Assembly (NCBI RefSeq): GCF_000429725.1
Contig: NZ_AUCK01000001.1
Location: 372,001-436,000 of the forward strand
DNA from: Alkalicoccus chagannorensis DSM 18086
Lineage (GTDB): Bacteria > Bacillota > Bacilli > Bacillales > Salisediminibacteriaceae
Length of the DNA: 64,000 bases
Reading direction: 5' to 3'
The notes below the pieces were generated by a model. It was given only the letters and a program-made list of their open reading frames with translations, searched no databases and had not been told where the DNA came from. The position numbers and the translations under genes are program-made. Below are positions 10,156 through 58,236 of this stretch, piece by piece; positions within the stretch are counted from its first letter, which is position 1, and every line of letters begins with the position of its first letter.

Positions 10156-10602
10156 TTATTCGTCCTCATCACTTCTTCTCCCAATTGCTTCGATCACAGG
10201 CTCGCCATCATCTTCGCCGAGATAGAAAAAACGAGTTCTCGTTTCTTCCGTGACCGCTCCGCCTTCTTCAATTTCATACGTGATCGTCATCCGGATCCGC
10301 TCTTCCTCGTACTCATTAACTTCAGGCACTGTCTCTTCTACCGCTGCTACTCTCTCGATGGTTCTCGAGGAAACGAGCTGCTGATGATAGCGGCGTTCGT
10401 TGTGATACCCGTGGTTATTCAGAATGTAATACGGTTCCATGTAGCTGAAGCTGCCACTTTCCAGGCTCTCTTCCCAGTCATCCAGATAGCTGAGAATAAA
10501 CGCTTCTTCATCTTCTGCATTCCGGTTATCATCCTCCCACTCCCCCTGCCCGCCACAGGCAGTGAGAAGCAGCAATAGAATTGCTGCGTTCAACAGCTTC
10601 AT
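10156..10602 (-). CDS. Small secreted lipoprotein, unknown function
   Basis: 148 aa. It has a short signal peptide with lipobox LLTAC (C16), then an acidic linker. A domain of about 100 residues follows, with two aromatic helices (FILSYLDDWEESLESGSFSYMEPYY) and a strand-rich end (IRMTITYEIEEGG, TRFFYLGEDDGEPVIEAIG). This looks like the NTF2-like C-terminal domain of TcaA/YvbJ-type proteins, a tentative comparison. Its ATG overlaps the yppE stop by 4 bp, so it is coupled to yppE. It is expected on the outer face of the membrane. Confidence 0.8.
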   Translation of the reverse strand: MKLLNAAILLLLLTACGGQGEWEDDNRNAEDEEAFILSYLDDWEESLESGSFSYMEPYYILNNHGYHNERRYHQQLVSSRTIERVAAVEETVPEVNEYEEERIRMTITYEIEEGGAVTEETRTRFFYLGEDDGEPVIEAIGRRSDEDE

Positions 10603-25985: not shown

Positions 25986-26115
25986 GTCAGCCTCCTTCTG
26001 TCCCTGTCCTATAATCAGGATCAAGGCAGTCTTTCCATTGATGGTGTCTTTCCGGTACAGTCCTTCTGGTACTGTCCAGCTCATATTATATCAATTTCCA
26101 GGCATTGTGTCGAAA

Positions 26116-43163: not shown

Positions 43164-43969
43164 ACAGGCTGCCCTCCTTCAGTCAGTTCTCTTACAAAGT
43201 CCTCAATTTCTTCCAGAGCCTGCTCACGCTGATCGGACAGAAGCGCGCTGCTTCTATCGGTGATGAACTGAACGAGCGCACTGCCGACGATGACGCCGTC
43301 TGCAATCTGCTGAAAGTACTGGACGTGCTCCGCTTTGGAGATGCCGAATCCTGCGAGCACAGGAACATGTGAAGCCTGTTTGAGCTCCTGGATCGACTGT
43401 TCCAGATCTTTGTTGAAGTTTTCCCTTGTACCTGTCACCCCAAGAGAAGTCACGTAGTACAAAAATCCGTCTCCAAGACCGGCTATCTCTTTCATCCTTG
43501 ACTTCGATGTCGGCGCAACCAGATTGATCAGCGAAATTCCCCGGTCACGGCAGCGTGTTCTCAGCTCTGCTGCCTCTTCGTGAGGAAGGTCCGGTATTAG
43601 GATGCCATCCATTTCTGCATCCTGCATCCGGTCCAGTACTTGTTCATATCCGAGAGAGAGCACAGGATTAACATAGGTGAAGAGGACCATCGGAATTGCT
43701 AGTCCGCGTTCCCTCGCTTCTTTTGCTCCGGCAATGGCTGTCTTCAGTCCACCTCCGGCTCTCCGCGCTGCCTCTCCTGCTTTTTGAATCACTGGACCGT
43801 CTGCGAGCGGGTCACTGAATGGCACGCCCCATTCCAGTGCATCCGCTCCGGCTTTTTCCAGCGACAGCGCAATGTCGATCGAAGAATCATAATCAGGGAA
43901 GGAGCTCATGATATAGGGAACAAATTTTTCCCTGCTCTGTTGGAACGTATCATTCGTTAATCGGTTCAT
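43160..43969 (-). CDS. trpA: Tryptophan synthase alpha chain
   Basis: 269 aa. The start ATG at 43969 overlaps the trpB stop (ATGA) with GGAGGG nine bases upstream. The active-site glutamate lies in [33 protein letters not shown] and [15 protein letters not shown] follow. It cleaves indole-3-glycerol phosphate and passes indole to TrpB. Confidence 0.96.
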
Positions 43970-45792
43970 TCGCTGGTGCCCTCCAGTGCTTCCTGAATCG
44001 TATCTACATCTTTGTCTCCACGGCCGGAAAGACAAATCAGCATCGTTTCATCCTTCCCTCGTTTGCCCGCTTCTCTGGCCGCATAGGCCAGTGCATGAGC
44101 GGTCTCGATAGCCGGCAGGATGCCCTCTTTACGGCAGAGGTCTTCAAGTGCTCTCATCGATTCGTCATCGGTCGCCGGTTCATATTTTACTCTTCCCGTA
44201 TCTTTTAAGTGTGCATGCTCCGGACCGATTCCCGGGTAGTCAAGCCCGGCCGAAATAGAATAAGGTTCAATGATATTTCCTTCTTCATCCTGAATCAGGT
44301 AGGAAAGTGAGCCGTGCAGCACCCCTTTGCGTCCATTTGTCAACGTTGCTGCGTTCAACGGCGTATCGATGCCTTTTCCTGCAGCCTCGATACCGACAAG
44401 CTGAACGCTTTGATCATTCAGGAACGGGTAGAACATCCCCATCGCATTGCTTCCCCCGCCGACGCAGGCGACGACTTCATCCGGCAGTCTGCCGAGCTGT
44501 TCGAGCATACCGGCACGGCTCTCCACTCCAATGATGCTTTGAAAATCCCGGACCATCATCGGGTACGGATGCGGACCGACGACACTGCCGATCAGATAAA
44601 AGGTGTCGTTGACGTTCGCAACCCAGTGCCGGATCGCTTCGTTTGTTGCATCTTTTAACGTCTTCCCGCCGGAAGTTACCTCGATTACCTCTGCTCCAAG
44701 CAGACGCATACGGAAGACGTTCAGCTCCTGCCGCTTAATATCCTCTGCACCCATGAACACTTTACAGCTCATACCAAAACGAGCGGCAACCGTTGCGGAG
44801 GCGACCCCGTGCTGACCAGCACCTGTTTCTGCTATAATCTGGGTTTTCCCCATTCGTTTTGCCAGAATGGCCTGCCCCAGCGCATTATTTATTTTATGCG
44901 CGCCGGTGTGGTTTAAGTCTTCCCGCTTCAAATAAATCTGTGCACCGCCGTAATATTCGGAGAGGCGCGGTGCGTGCGTCAAAGCTGTAGGCCGTCCGGA
45001 GTATTCTTTCAGCTCCTTGTCCAGCTCCTCCTGGAACGTTGGATCGTCTTTTACTTCCCGGTACGCATTCTCCAGTTCCTCCAGGGCAAACATCAGCGTT
45101 TCGGGAACATACTTACCACCGAAGTCCCCATAGCGGCCAAGTTTGTCCGGCGCAGCATAACGACTTTTCGCAGCTTTACTCATAGCAGCAATCTTCCCTT
45201 CATCATTTTTTCCATCGGTTTCTATACCGGAAGAAACATCGATTCCCCACGGTGCATAGGCGAGCAGCTCATGAACATTCTCCGGTTTAATTCCTCCAGC
45301 CGTCCAGCAGAAGACACCCTGCCGGGAGGCTTCGTTCGTATAGGCTGGTACTGTCTTCCAATCAAATTGAATGCCGCTGCCGCCCCACTGACTGTCTGTT
45401 TTCGTATCTATGACATACCCGTCTACGAGCCCTTCGAACTGCTGCATCCAACCGAGGGCGTCCGGTCCGTGATGAATCGTCTTCCATATTTTTTTACTCG
45501 TCAACGTACGGAGTGCTAGCACCTGTGCAGGGGTTTCGTTTCCATGCAGCTGAATGACATGCAGTCCGGCAATATCTGCCGTCCGTGCCGCCGTCTCAGG
45601 AGTTTCGTTCACGAACACGCCTGCCAGCAGGACATCCGGTGCAGGGTATTTACGTGTCCACCCTTTTACATCCACTGGGGATACCCGCCGCCTGCTGTCA
45701 GCAAAAATGAAACCGACAGCATCTGGTTGTGCAGAAACGGCTTTTACATAGTCCTCATAGGTTGAGGTTCCACAAAGCTTCAGATTTGTCAT
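43966..45792 (-). CDS. trpFB: Fused phosphoribosylanthranilate isomerase-tryptophan synthase beta chain (TrpF-TrpB)
   Basis: 608 aa in one uninterrupted frame; I retranslated 45121-45300 and found no stop between the parts. Residues 1-about 207 are TrpF: LKLCGTS (C7), VIDTK (D129), GGSG and [10 protein letters not shown]. Residues from about 212 are Trp[21 protein letters not shown] lysine in HTGAHKINN (K300), GGGSNAMG and CLSGRGDKD. The TrpF C-terminal helix ([14 protein letters not shown]) runs straight into TrpB, with almost no linker. An internal ATG at 45183 (M204) with weak AAGGG upstream could also give free TrpB. It overlaps trpC and trpA by 4 bp each. Confidence 0.94.
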
Positions 45793-46559: not shown

Positions 46560-47560
46560 GCTTTGTTCCGCTCCTTTGTCTGAAGTGCTTCCATATGCTG
46601 CAGAACGGTAGACCCGAGTGCTTCACTCGCCAGTTCCACACCTTCTTTCCAGGTGGAAGCCCGGCCGGCCGTATAGAGCCCGGCCGCCGCATTCAGCAGC
46701 AGCAGCTGCTCGGCAGCACGGGAGCCTTCCTTGTTGAATACTTGAAGGATGATCGAGGCACTTTCTGCGGCATCCGCAGCAGTGGCACCTTCCAGTGAGG
46801 TTCGTGACATGCCGAAGTCTTCAGGGGTGACATCGTATTCCCTGCGCTGACCGTCGAATACTTCGATAACGTGGGAAACCCCCTGGGTTGTCACTTCATC
46901 AAGGCCGTCTTCTCCTGTGACGAAGAGGACCCGTTCGATATTCAGCAGCCGTGCGGCTTCAGCCATCTTGGAAGCAGCCTCCCTGCTGTATACACCGATG
47001 ACCCGATGCGACGCCTGTGCCGGGTTCGTCAACGGCCCGAGGAGGTTGAAAATCGTTCTTCTTCCAAGTGCCTTTCTGACCGGAGCTACGTGCTTCATGG
47101 CTTCATGATAAAACGGCGCGAAGAAAAAGGTCAGGTGATGTTCCTTAAGCCTCGTTTCCGCCGCCGTCTGACCGGTTTGAAACGGAACGTTCAACTCTTC
47201 CAGCACATCTGCGCTCCCGCTTTTAGATGATACGCTCCGGTTTCCGTGTTTTGCGACAGGAACTCCGAGAGCACTGAGCAGGATCGCTGAAGCTGTTGAA
47301 ATGTTGTACGTTCCAGCCTCGTCTCCTCCCGTTCCGCACGTATCCAGAAGCGGCATCGGCAGTTCTACATTTACCGCTTTGTTGATCATCCCGGATGCAA
47401 ATCCGGCAATCTCCTCCGCTGTTTCTCCGCGGTAGGAAAGCACTGCAAGTACGGCAGCCATCTCTTCTCTGCTTACCGACCCGCTCATCATCGCTTCGAC
47501 AAGCTGCCGGGCTTCTTCTCTGCTCAACTGATCACCTGTCATTACTTTGTGAAGATTCAT
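46556..47560 (-). CDS. trpD: Anthranilate phosphoribosyltransferase
   Basis: 334 aa. The PRPP-binding blocks DTCGTGGDEAGTYNIST, KHGNRSVSSKSGSADVLE and RTIFNLLGPLTNPA are intact. The start ATG at 47560 is ten bases after GGAGGAG and lies 29 bp inside trpE. It adds phosphoribose to anthranilate. Confidence 0.96.
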   Translation of the reverse strand: MNLHKVMTGDQLSREEARQLVEAMMSGSVSREEMAAVLAVLSYRGETAEEIAGFASGMINKAVNVELPMPLLDTCGTGGDEAGTYNISTASAILLSALGVPVAKHGNRSVSSKSGSADVLEELNVPFQTGQTAAETRLKEHHLTFFFAPFYHEAMKHVAPVRKALGRRTIFNLLGPLTNPAQASHRVIGVYSREAASKMAEAARLLNIERVLFVTGEDGLDEVTTQGVSHVIEVFDGQRREYDVTPEDFGMSRTSLEGATAADAAESASIILQVFNKEGSRAAEQLLLLNAAAGLYTAGRASTWKEGVELASEALGSTVLQHMEALQTKERNKA

Positions 47561-49061
47561 AGGACAGGATCTCCTCCTTTGCTGTTCTCTTCTCTGCTAA
47601 CTGAATGGCGTAAAGCAGTGCTTTCGCCTTGTTTCTCGTCTCTTCCCATTCTAAAGCAGGAACCGAATCCTGAACAACTCCTGCGCCTGCCTGAACGTAA
47701 GCTCGGCCATCTTTGAGCACAATCGTACGGATTGCAATACAGGAATCAATCGCCCGGTTGAATCCGTAGTAAGCGACAGCACCGGCATAAACGCCACGAT
47801 GCTGCTTTTCAAGCTCCTGGATGATTTCCACCGCCCGTACTTTAGGAGCACCGGAGACAGTACCTGCTGGATGCGTGGAATAGAGAGCTTCAAACGGGTG
47901 CACGTCTTCCCGCAGCATTCCGGTCACCCGGGTCGTTAAATGCATGACATGGGAGAAATAAGAGACGTCCATCAAGTCATGCACCTCTACACTTCCGTAT
48001 TCGCTGACCCTGCCGATGTCATTTCTGGCAAGGTCCACGAGCATCAGATGCTCCGCCTGTTCTTTTTCATCGGCTGCCAGTTCTGCAGCTAATGCTTCAT
48101 CCTCTTTTTTGTCTGCACCGCGTCGCCTCGTCCCGGCGATAGGATGAATCTCCAGCTTCCGGTCCTGGTCGGCCTTGACCAGTCTTTCCGGTGAACTCCC
48201 GATAATATCCTGATCATCGAATCGAATATAATACAAATACGGACTCGGATTCACTTTCCGGAGCACCCGGTATAAGGAAAATCCGTCCGACTGTACAGGT
48301 AGTTCAAAACGTTGGGATAAGACAGTCTGGAACACGTCTCCCTGGGCGATGTAATCTTTGATTTTCTGTACATCTGCTTCGAATCCTTCTTTTGAATAAT
48401 TCGATGTCACCCCGGCAAAGACGTCATCCGGTACTTCATCCTCCACCGGAATCAGTGGAAATCCGGAGGCCGGGCTTTCCTCGATCCGCTGCATCAAGTC
48501 CCGGAGAATGCCTTCTGCTTCATCGTAGGCCTTGTCCACCCCGGCGGTTGTCTGTTGAAAATGAACGAGCGTCAGCGTTTCTTCTTTATGGTTAAAAGCA
48601 AGAATCGTGCTGCAGAACATAAACCTGGCATCATGTACTCCGGGCTCCGCCCCCCCGGCACGCGGCTCATAATAACGGAACCCTTCAAAACCGAGATACC
48701 CGACAGCTCCGCCGGGAAACGGCAGATCCGGAAGCTTCGGTGACATGTGCAGCTCATCCATGATTCTCTCCCATGCAGTCTGAAGATCCGCTTCCTTCCA
48801 ATAGAATGTGCCGTCTCTTCCGCGGTGTACGAAAGTTTCTTCTTCATCCTGCAGGAACGAAGTCGGCGTCAGACCAATAAAAGAATAATTCGACCACGGG
48901 GAAACAGGATCTTTACTTTCTAACAGGAATGCCGCCTCCTGATCAAACTGTTGAAACAGCTGGATCGGCGTCTTGGTATCTGCAACAACCGTTGCCGACA
49001 GCGGAACTGTCCGGTACACCGCTGCCTCTGTTCGGAATGTTTCTTTTGTCATTGAAAACAT
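47532..49061 (-). CDS. trpE: Anthranilate synthase component I
   Basis: 509 aa. The feedback-site block [18 protein letters not shown] lies near the N-terminus. The catalytic part has [31 protein letters not shown] and [19 protein letters not shown] 49061 follows GAGGTG by five bases. No trpG is in this operon; as in B. subtilis the glutaminase is probably PabA, encoded elsewhere. A TRAP-type triplet array lies just upstream, and two more GAG triplets overlap the ribosome site. Confidence 0.96.
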
Positions 49062-49064
49062 CGT

Positions 49065-49154
49065 CTCACCTCATCAATAGAATGACGAAGCGGATCAGGC
49101 TGTATCAGCTCTTCTCCGCTCAGCTCTGCTATGCTGTTCTTACTGTCTCTGCTC
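49065..49154 (-). promoter_or_regulatory. Probable TRAP-binding site in the aroH-trpE leader
   Basis: On the minus strand, seven NAG triplets follow each other with exact two-base spacers. In transcript order they are AAG (49141-49139), CAG (49136-49134), UAG (49131-49129), and GAG at 49126-49124, 49121-49119, 49116-49114 and 49111-49109. Two more GAGs with a two-base spacer (49154-49152, 49149-49147) lie in the last aroH codons. Two more (49072-49070, 49067-49065) overlap the trpE Shine-Dalgarno. TRAP binds (G/U)AG repeats with two-to-three-base spacers. No terminator hairpin with a U-run lies between the array and trpE, so control of translation looks more likely than attenuation. Confidence 0.75.
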
Positions 49155-49514
49155 AGCCTTTAAATCCGGACGCAGCGATGCTGCCTTTCCGTGATAGACG
49201 TGCTGGACTTCCGCCTGGGAAACGGAAACCTCCGCGGTCACCATCAGACGGATGCACTTTTCCATACTGCCGGGCACCGGAATTTCCTGCGCACACATAA
49301 CGGGTACAAACTGCCACCCTTCCATTTTTCTTACTGCGCCGGCAGGAAATGTTGACGTCAAATCTTCCGTCATGGTGATGATCACTTGAGCGACCTGCTC
49401 GGGATGAAGATCATTAGCGTCAGCCATATCACGCACGACGCGGATGACAGCGTCATGAATCAGTTCAGGACGGTCTTCTTCTACAGTAACCGCTCCGCGG
49501 ATCCCTCTTATCAT
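49140..49514 (-). CDS. aroH: Chorismate mutase, AroH type
   Basis: 124 aa. Active-site residues of the B. subtilis AroH trimer can be matched: R6, C74, E77, R89 and Y107 (GIRGAVTVEED, VPVMCAQEIPVPGSMEKCIRLM). It converts chorismate to prephenate for Phe/Tyr. It overlaps aroB by 4 bp, and its last codons contain two GAG triplets of the putative TRAP site. Confidence 0.95.
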   Translation of the reverse strand: MIRGIRGAVTVEEDRPELIHDAVIRVVRDMADANDLHPEQVAQVIITMTEDLTSTFPAGAVRKMEGWQFVPVMCAQEIPVPGSMEKCIRLMVTAEVSVSQAEVQHVYHGKAASLRPDLKAEQRQ

Positions 49515-51766: not shown

Positions 51767-51872
51767 GCATCATCCTCTGCTTTCTTTATCGCTTTTATGC
51801 GTTAAATTGCTGTACATCCATTGTTCATGATATAACAAAGAATTTCAAGAGGAAGACCTCAATTTTCAGAAA

Positions 51873-57879: not shown

Positions 57880-58011
57880 GTCAGCTTCCTCCAGACTGCC
57901 GGTATTCCCGGGGCCGGGCAGTTTCTTTATCGCTTGTTCAGTATAGCATAACCACGTTCCCTCTAGGAAGGAATCGAAGCAGATTGTCGTGACTCCTCTG
58001 TCCTCCGCTGA

Positions 58012-58236
58012 TTATGCACCGTCATCCGTACTCATCTCTCCATGGGACGTCTGGATGACCGCTTTCCCCCTGATTTTCACGGCTGAGGTATGTTCAGTAA
58101 ATTGAGCAATCATCATCTCGTCGCGGTCCAGTTTCTCCGAATGGTGGAACCGTGTATCCGTCCCCCGTGTCAGTCCGATCACGTTGACACCGTCTTCCAT
58201 GGCTTTGATCACTATATAGTCATTATTCTGGCTCAC
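58012..58236 (-). CDS. mtrB: trp RNA-binding attenuation protein TRAP (MtrB)
   Basis: 74 aa from GTG at 58236, nine bases after AAGGAG; this gives the usual 75-residue length, while ATG at 58266 lies inside folE. The core [45 protein letters not shown] and [10 protein letters not shown] is nearly identical to B. subtilis. RNA-contact residues (K/K/R in EKLDR and KIRGK) are kept. The 11-mer binds (G/U)AG repeats when loaded with tryptophan; a candidate target lies before trpE. Confidence 0.96.

Follow-up and report, generated by a model that had tools for sequence, protein, structure and literature searches.

A compact trp leader in Alkalicoccus chagannorensis that appears to be a TRAP system cut down to its translational half

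TRAP is the textbook RNA-binding protein for the control of both transcription and translation from one leader. In Bacillus subtilis the trp leader is served by its own promoter, Rho and translational coupling both have a part in the trp operon, and ycbK is, like trpG, a target at which TRAP controls translation. The trp operon of Bacillus halodurans was reportedly described by Szigeti in 2004 as TRAP-controlled at the level of transcription only. The B. subtilis trp leader comprises 203 nt with an antiterminator/attenuator pair, TRAP acting by attenuation (PMC3913778), and TRAP can block ribosomes either directly or through a structural change (PMC4347634).

The leader described here precedes trpE of Alkalicoccus chagannorensis DSM 18086, of a genus that favours salty and alkaline habitats, and was analysed within a stretch of 64,000 nt (contig NZ_AUCK01000001.1, positions 372,001–436,000), referred to as the window, from whose first base all coordinates are counted. 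With the B. subtilis trpEDCFBA leader it has in common TRAP, a NAG repeat tract before trpE and a hairpin hiding the trpE ribosome site; it differs in its length of only 78 nt, in the missing attenuator, in that no promoter was found and in a tract running into aroH. Judged by its sequence, it appears to be the known TRAP system cut down to its translational half, promoter and terminator apparently having been lost. In TRAP-controlled translation of trpG (also trpP) the tract is likewise compact and placed at the end of the preceding gene, and control is at translation only, as proposed here; the trpG tract, however, runs into the ribosome site, whereas the trpE tract lies 36 nt upstream and would act via the hairpin. 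Set against the B. halodurans trp operon, both systems would have lost one control arm, the window genome being the mirror image.

The gene upstream of the leader, aroH (49140–49514, minus strand), was assigned as type I chorismate mutase by Pfam (CM_1, E 1.8e-42) together with its sequence, and the putative regulated gene trpE (47532–49061, minus strand) as anthranilate synthase component I (Chorismate_bind and Anth_synt_I_N). Between the last base of the aroH stop codon (49140) and the first base of trpE (49061) lies the gap of 78 nt. Pfam likewise bore out the other gene calls of the initial annotation, i.e. mtrB as TRAP and 'aroC' as chorismate synthase, the gene of which we take to be aroF by B. 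subtilis naming.

The predicted TRAP-binding tract (49109–49154, minus strand) consists of two GAGs in the last codons of aroH (49154–49152 and 49149–49147) and a phased run of seven NAG triplets at 49141–49109, with spacers of exactly 2 nt throughout: AAG (49141–49139), CAG (49136–49134), TAG (49131–49129) and four GAGs (49126–49124, 49121–49119, 49116–49114 and 49111–49109). The trpE Shine-Dalgarno region TGAGGTGA (49066–49073, minus strand) brings two further GAGs, 2 nt apart (49072–49070 and 49067–49065), which make up GAGGTGAG (49072–49065) before the trpE start. The strict five-base phase, the two GAG pairs and the gap length had all been read from the sequence in the initial annotation, base for base as found here. 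Its description of a TRAP target overlapping the trpE ribosome site holds for the two GAGs there and not for the phased tract, the last GAG of which lies 36 nt from the first Shine-Dalgarno GAG and 47 nt from the start codon.

The phased run is not a product of chance. Its exact seven-fold AG pattern occurred a single time in the window; with up to two mismatches allowed, 5 window matches were obtained (4 of them in the trpE-leader tract) against 0.39 expected, and none of 100 shuffles reached 5. The chain score of the tract, with weights set by the analyst, was 7.4 and thus the top of 1276 window tiles, all others scoring at most 5.1; the runner-up of 5.1 lies at about 10200–10400 (minus strand). 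A five-triplet pattern was searched in the whole genome of 3.52 Mb and gave 5 matches at 4 places, two within the trp operon, as compared to 3 matches for the reversed pattern. The third place (C8:951), beside cold-shock-like reading frames with no visible tryptophan link, was discarded as a candidate; the fourth is C1:109123. The best-scoring chain comprises ten triplets, including an AAG at 49160–49158, with spacings of 3, 2, 5, 2, 2, 2, 2, 2 and 2 nt, and seven of the ten are (G/U)AG. Measured against about 9–11 NAG repeats 2–3 nt apart, as in TRAP leaders, this is a borderline match owing to the one spacing of 5 nt and the three weaker triplets (CAG or AAG), with which TRAP binding may be weaker; in the best chains of the Alkalicoccus relatives, 9–10 of 11–12 triplets are (G/U)AG. 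Rfam gave no match at gathering score at the trp leader, its two matches there (E 3.5 and 3.9) being far below. Within the window, an Rfam gathering score was reached once, by a pan motif at 25994–26078 (minus strand, 63.7 bits).

An attenuator hairpin with a U stretch was not found in the aroH–trpE gap: no terminator was listed by the terminator scan, and the best scored candidate reached only −3.2 kcal/mol, which agrees with the earlier reading that no attenuator is visible. The Shine-Dalgarno hairpin described below was considered as a terminator and rejected, as its stem reaches to 49064 and is not followed by the TTTT of trpE until 49058, which would be an unusual form. As to a promoter directly before the leader, the TTGACA that 34/34 other genomes of the family have no more than 60 nt from where the upstream gene ends is absent in the window genome, and a crude consensus scan of the minus strand from the aroF start to trpE gave no promoter-like site of at least 9/12. 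The nearest upstream candidate for aro–trp read-through is a promoter-like TTGAAA-17-AACAAT upstream of aroF (51820–51848, minus strand); of the 14 loci listed, 11, the window genome among them, have TTGAAA-17-(near AACAAT) at positions −80 to −83 relative to aroF. From the lack of promoter-like sites between aroF and trpE in the scan and from the recurrent promoter-like site before aroF we infer one aro–trp transcript. A read-through transcript from 'aroC', as suggested in the initial annotation, fits both the missing TTGACA and the promoter-free scan. Read-through might be lowered by weak terminator-like sites that lie within aroB and aroH on the trp strand (10 sites versus 3.5 expected in the terminator scan of 3.9 kb, both strands).

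Among the 199 genomes of the order, nine carry the CATAAAAGYGATAAAGA of the aroF leader (51783–51799, minus strand), each a single time and always about 3 kb upstream of trpE. The sequence lies beside the aroF promoter region and probably represents promoter plus first transcribed bases. A separate RNA element, as first considered, is less likely, since in many loci the aligned stretch comes, as read by eye, after the −10-like TATGATATAGT; Rfam gave a single match at the aroF leader (E 4.2), far below gathering score.

For the family survey, all leaders of 35 genomes from 8 genera were extracted and scored; mtrB and trpE were each present in 35/35. The genus includes Alkalicoccus saliphilus, A. 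urumqiensis and A. luteus (G003), and trpE of the seven genus relatives is 67–74% identical. The terminator score requires a hairpin with a tail of at least 5 T in 8 and may miss odd forms or pick spurious ones. Outside the genus, a T-tailed hairpin was scored in 27/27 leaders (−12.3 to −23.6 kcal/mol), in many of them in the form CGTCTGCCC..GGCAGACGTTTTT; for G032 the hit differs from the hairpin chosen by eye. Within Alkalicoccus the scores were 0, 0, 0, −2.6, −6.2, −7.4 and −15.7, the last in A. luteus, next to −3.2 in the window genome. The strong hairpin of A. luteus has a poor T tail and could still be an attenuator, and the weak terminators of G005 (−7.4) and G006 (−6.2) are near the −8.4 kcal/mol of the working B. 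halodurans attenuator. What looks like a decayed terminator copy (CGTC/CATC-CGCCC..TTTTTC, in the analyst's reading) was noted in G004–G006.

The leader of 78 nt contrasts with 183–392 nt in the other 34 genomes of the family and is the shortest of the 143 scored. Going by the order of features, not by a deletion alignment, it seems to have lost the promoter stretch and the stretch between tract and hairpin. As regards the comparison with sister species proposed in the initial annotation, triplets and mtrB were both kept in the seven other genus genomes, and loss of the triplets beside a retained mtrB was not found.

The survey was widened to 199 genomes of the order, 114 of which passed the threshold set for a trpE match; the 17 genomes without mtrB all fell outside these 114. 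Besides six leaders already read, the remaining 108 were fetched and scored, with 350 nt taken for the five in which the end of the upstream gene could not be located. Of these 108, 94 had a terminator score of −10 or below and 14 did not. By eye, 22 of the 108 were read, and 13 leaders were examined from 80 named loci, many others of which stop short of trpE. Attenuator loss is probably not unique to Alkalicoccus and may have happened repeatedly. The shortest gap among the 108 further leaders was 143 nt, none coming near the compactness of the window leader. Several of the leaders read by eye have no clear terminator but strong hairpin-like complementarity over the trpE Shine-Dalgarno, CTCATTCTCCAT..ATGGAGAGGTGAG; they belong mainly to family f7 (G040, G085, G122, G151, G177, G201 and G225), in which the TRAP tract is long.

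Folding of the leader, as proposed in the initial annotation, brought out a feature that the annotation had missed, a hairpin common to the genus and predicted to be stronger with TRAP. It spans 49064–49094 (minus strand) in the predicted fold, with 10 bp + 2 bp and a loop at 49082–49077, and takes in the whole trpE Shine-Dalgarno, so that this is hidden in the manner of B. subtilis. The 69-nt fold had a z of −2.5, and 3 of 200 shuffles were as good. In an alignment of the eight genus genomes the hairpin has nine consensus pairs, all nine of which form in the window genome, with one A-U to G-U change and one two-sided U-A to A-U change; the latter is a single event and modest evidence for the hairpin. 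Five of the nine pairs are invariant, partly because the Shine-Dalgarno itself is fixed. At −14.1 kcal/mol the hairpin region of the window genome is the strongest in the genus (others −9.2 to −13.4). The suggestion that TRAP acts here mainly on trpE translation is supported, through folding and comparison, by this genus-wide hairpin as well as by the missing terminator, which all 27 family members outside the genus possess.

Within the tract, folding points to GAGCGG (49116–49121, minus strand) as a predicted anti-anti-Shine-Dalgarno, which would pair without TRAP with CCGCUU (49093–49088) near the base of the 5' arm of the hairpin. For modelling, bound TRAP was represented by barring the tract from pairing, and the cost of opening the eight Shine-Dalgarno bases was calculated with the RNA ends chosen in 28 ways; this model leaves out the ribosome that terminates on aroH and would sit over the 5' side of the tract. 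The mean cost rose from about 4.4 kcal/mol for the free tract (range 2.6–7.4) to 9.6 kcal/mol for the occupied one (range 7.6–12.9), and was higher on occupation in 28/28. In 25 of the 28 minimum-energy free folds, five of the six GAGCGG–CCGCUU pairs were formed and a 6-bp hairpin still lay over the Shine-Dalgarno; the other three had no GAGCGG pairing and 9 or 12 hairpin pairs, and in the free 126-nt fold the full hairpin was already present. Upon shuffling of the tract only, 3 of 40 sequences gave a free opening cost as low as or lower than the native one in the window genome; the corresponding counts were 0 (G001), 3 (G002), 27 (A. luteus, G003), 7 (G004), 0 (G006) and 5 (G007). This control is modest for the window genome and fails for A. 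luteus. The complementarity of the tract to the anti-Shine-Dalgarno arm is suggestive rather than proven. A modelled switch, taken as a rise of at least 3 kcal/mol, was obtained for 7/8 genus members (not A. luteus) and for 13/27 family members outside the genus.

On the basis of sequence and folding, we consider it slightly better than an even chance that TRAP represses trpE translation via a hairpin switch on an aro–trp read-through transcript. Transcription would start upstream, most likely at the aroF promoter, and run through aroF, aroB and aroH into trp. Without tryptophan, GAGCGG in the tract would pair with CCGCUU, only a 6-bp hairpin would remain at the Shine-Dalgarno, and trpE would be translated. 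With tryptophan, TRAP would wrap the tract (49154–49109) and free CCGCUU, which would complete the 12-bp hairpin hiding the Shine-Dalgarno, and trpE translation would fall. Rho would perhaps terminate the untranslated mRNA early and in this way reduce the remainder of the operon; a rho gene is encoded in the genome, and a polar effect of Rho when trpE is not translated is plausible. The fuller picture is put forward tentatively, at somewhat less than an even chance: a natural TRAP trp operon with neither promoter nor attenuator, a single aro–trp transcript on which TRAP shares its site with the ribosome finishing aroH, a translation-only switch at trpE with Rho polarity downstream, and a stepwise shift from a terminator intact in the family to one decayed in the genus and finally deleted along with the promoter. 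The literature searched yielded no description of a trp leader built in this way, which is weak evidence of novelty, most journals lying outside the coverage.

The TRAP gene, mtrB, lies about 9 kb from the trpE leader, as had been annotated (58012–58236, minus strand, GTG start, PF02081 with 132.8 bits), directly after a folE-like gene, and is the single match in the genome. Fifteen distinct solved TRAP sequences match its product, which aligns ungapped to a solved TRAP sequence over residues 2–71. The RNA contacts of TRAP are K37, K56 and R58, and the window protein has both of the stretches aligned there, EKL and K-x-R. Directly behind the mtrB stop codon, AGCGGAGGACAGAGGAG (57993–58009, minus strand) has four AG in 5-nt phase, which may be accidental or mark a weak site close to mtrB itself. 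Exchange of residue 60 of B. subtilis TRAP from E to K has been linked to weaker TRAP-induced termination (PMC3913778), and the window TRAP has K aligned to this Glu60. Among the 80 nearest named loci (L001–L080), with the protein not caught in 16, the 64 TRAPs obtained have 58 K, 3 D, 2 R, 1 N and no E at this position. As an explanation the residue was dismissed, K also occurring at loci with a visible terminator (such as L064 and L072), and it explains nothing here. For anti-TRAP, the PF15777 model gave no match in the window genome, and the model is a poor marker, matching 4 of 14 control genomes, 3 of them above its cut-off.

Elsewhere in the genome, a TRAP-like tract runs into the trpG Shine-Dalgarno, and such a tract stands at or directly before it in 9/9 other genomes as well (scores 4.1–6.3 across the ten). 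Within the trp operon, a second phased NAG run was located at the trpE–trpD junction (47577–47598, minus strand), just before the trpD Shine-Dalgarno. In 23 of the 35 family genomes this junction outscores every other tile of its own trpE, and in genera g5 and g6, with nine genomes, it scores 5.6–8.5 with 8–11 triplets, Glu-rich protein ends and the Shine-Dalgarno itself being confounders of such scores. By its sequence the run may be a second, undescribed TRAP site in the trp operon. Further along the operon, trpF and trpB are fused in one frame of 608 aa (43966–45792, minus strand), with PRAI at residues 5–205 and PALP at residues 266–590.

The main rival to the hairpin switch is that TRAP stops transcription without an attenuator, bound TRAP pushing RNA polymerase off in the gap. 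TRAP still exerts about 12-fold regulation in vivo in B. subtilis with the attenuator deleted, and a weak attenuator of −8.4 kcal/mol works in B. halodurans (PMC3913778); since TRAP can terminate in this way, the missing attenuator is no proof of missing transcription control. The engineered leaders of that study resemble the window leader in having no attenuator and a TRAP tract that is kept, but they are laboratory-made and carry an A+U-rich stretch after the tract. This stretch right after the binding site is the one clear need given in that study, and replacing its 28 nt by G and C nearly abolished attenuator-less termination (PMC3913778). The 28 nt behind the tract of the window leader are 50% A+U, and T runs ahead of the start codon reach a length of 2 at most (4–6 in five genus relatives, also 2 in G002 and G003), which makes TRAP-induced termination less likely here; the tract is moreover only 47 nt from the trpE start codon. 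We regard release of the polymerase as unlikely.

It is also conceivable, though in our judgement rather improbable, that the leader is a relic, promoter and terminator being gone, the tract eroding and trpE free of TRAP control. Two control parts of the relatives are indeed missing, AAG and CAG stand on the 5' side of the phased run, and the chain score of 7.4 is below the 8.3–10.0 of the other seven genus members. Yet five consecutive (G/U)AG triplets persist with exact spacing, the hairpin is kept with a two-sided change and is the strongest in the genus, the tract is complementary to the anti-Shine-Dalgarno arm, and TRAP and the trpG site are intact; the retained trpG tracts suggest that the TRAP regulon is in use, which likewise speaks against a relic. 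A direct block of the ribosome through the two Shine-Dalgarno GAGs, as at trpG and with no hairpin switch, could draw on GAGGTGAG with its GAGs 2 nt apart, on the trpG tract of the window genome running into its Shine-Dalgarno, and on the statement in a review (PMC4347634) that one repeat overlapping the ribosome site suffices. We judge it distinctly improbable: 36 nt lie between tract and Shine-Dalgarno GAGs, these GAGs are paired in the hairpin, and GAGGTGA, which is no more than a good Shine-Dalgarno, is likewise found in relatives whose leaders are different. For the hairpin switch, direct TRAP contact at these GAGs is possible and not needed.

The weight of each TRAP arm has so far been argued from engineered leaders. 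Alkalicoccus chagannorensis and its relatives seem to offer a natural experiment, leading from a full attenuator over a weak or missing one to a 78-nt leader with the translation arm only, by which two questions become testable, namely whether control of translation is enough by itself and whether TRAP in nature requires the attenuator.
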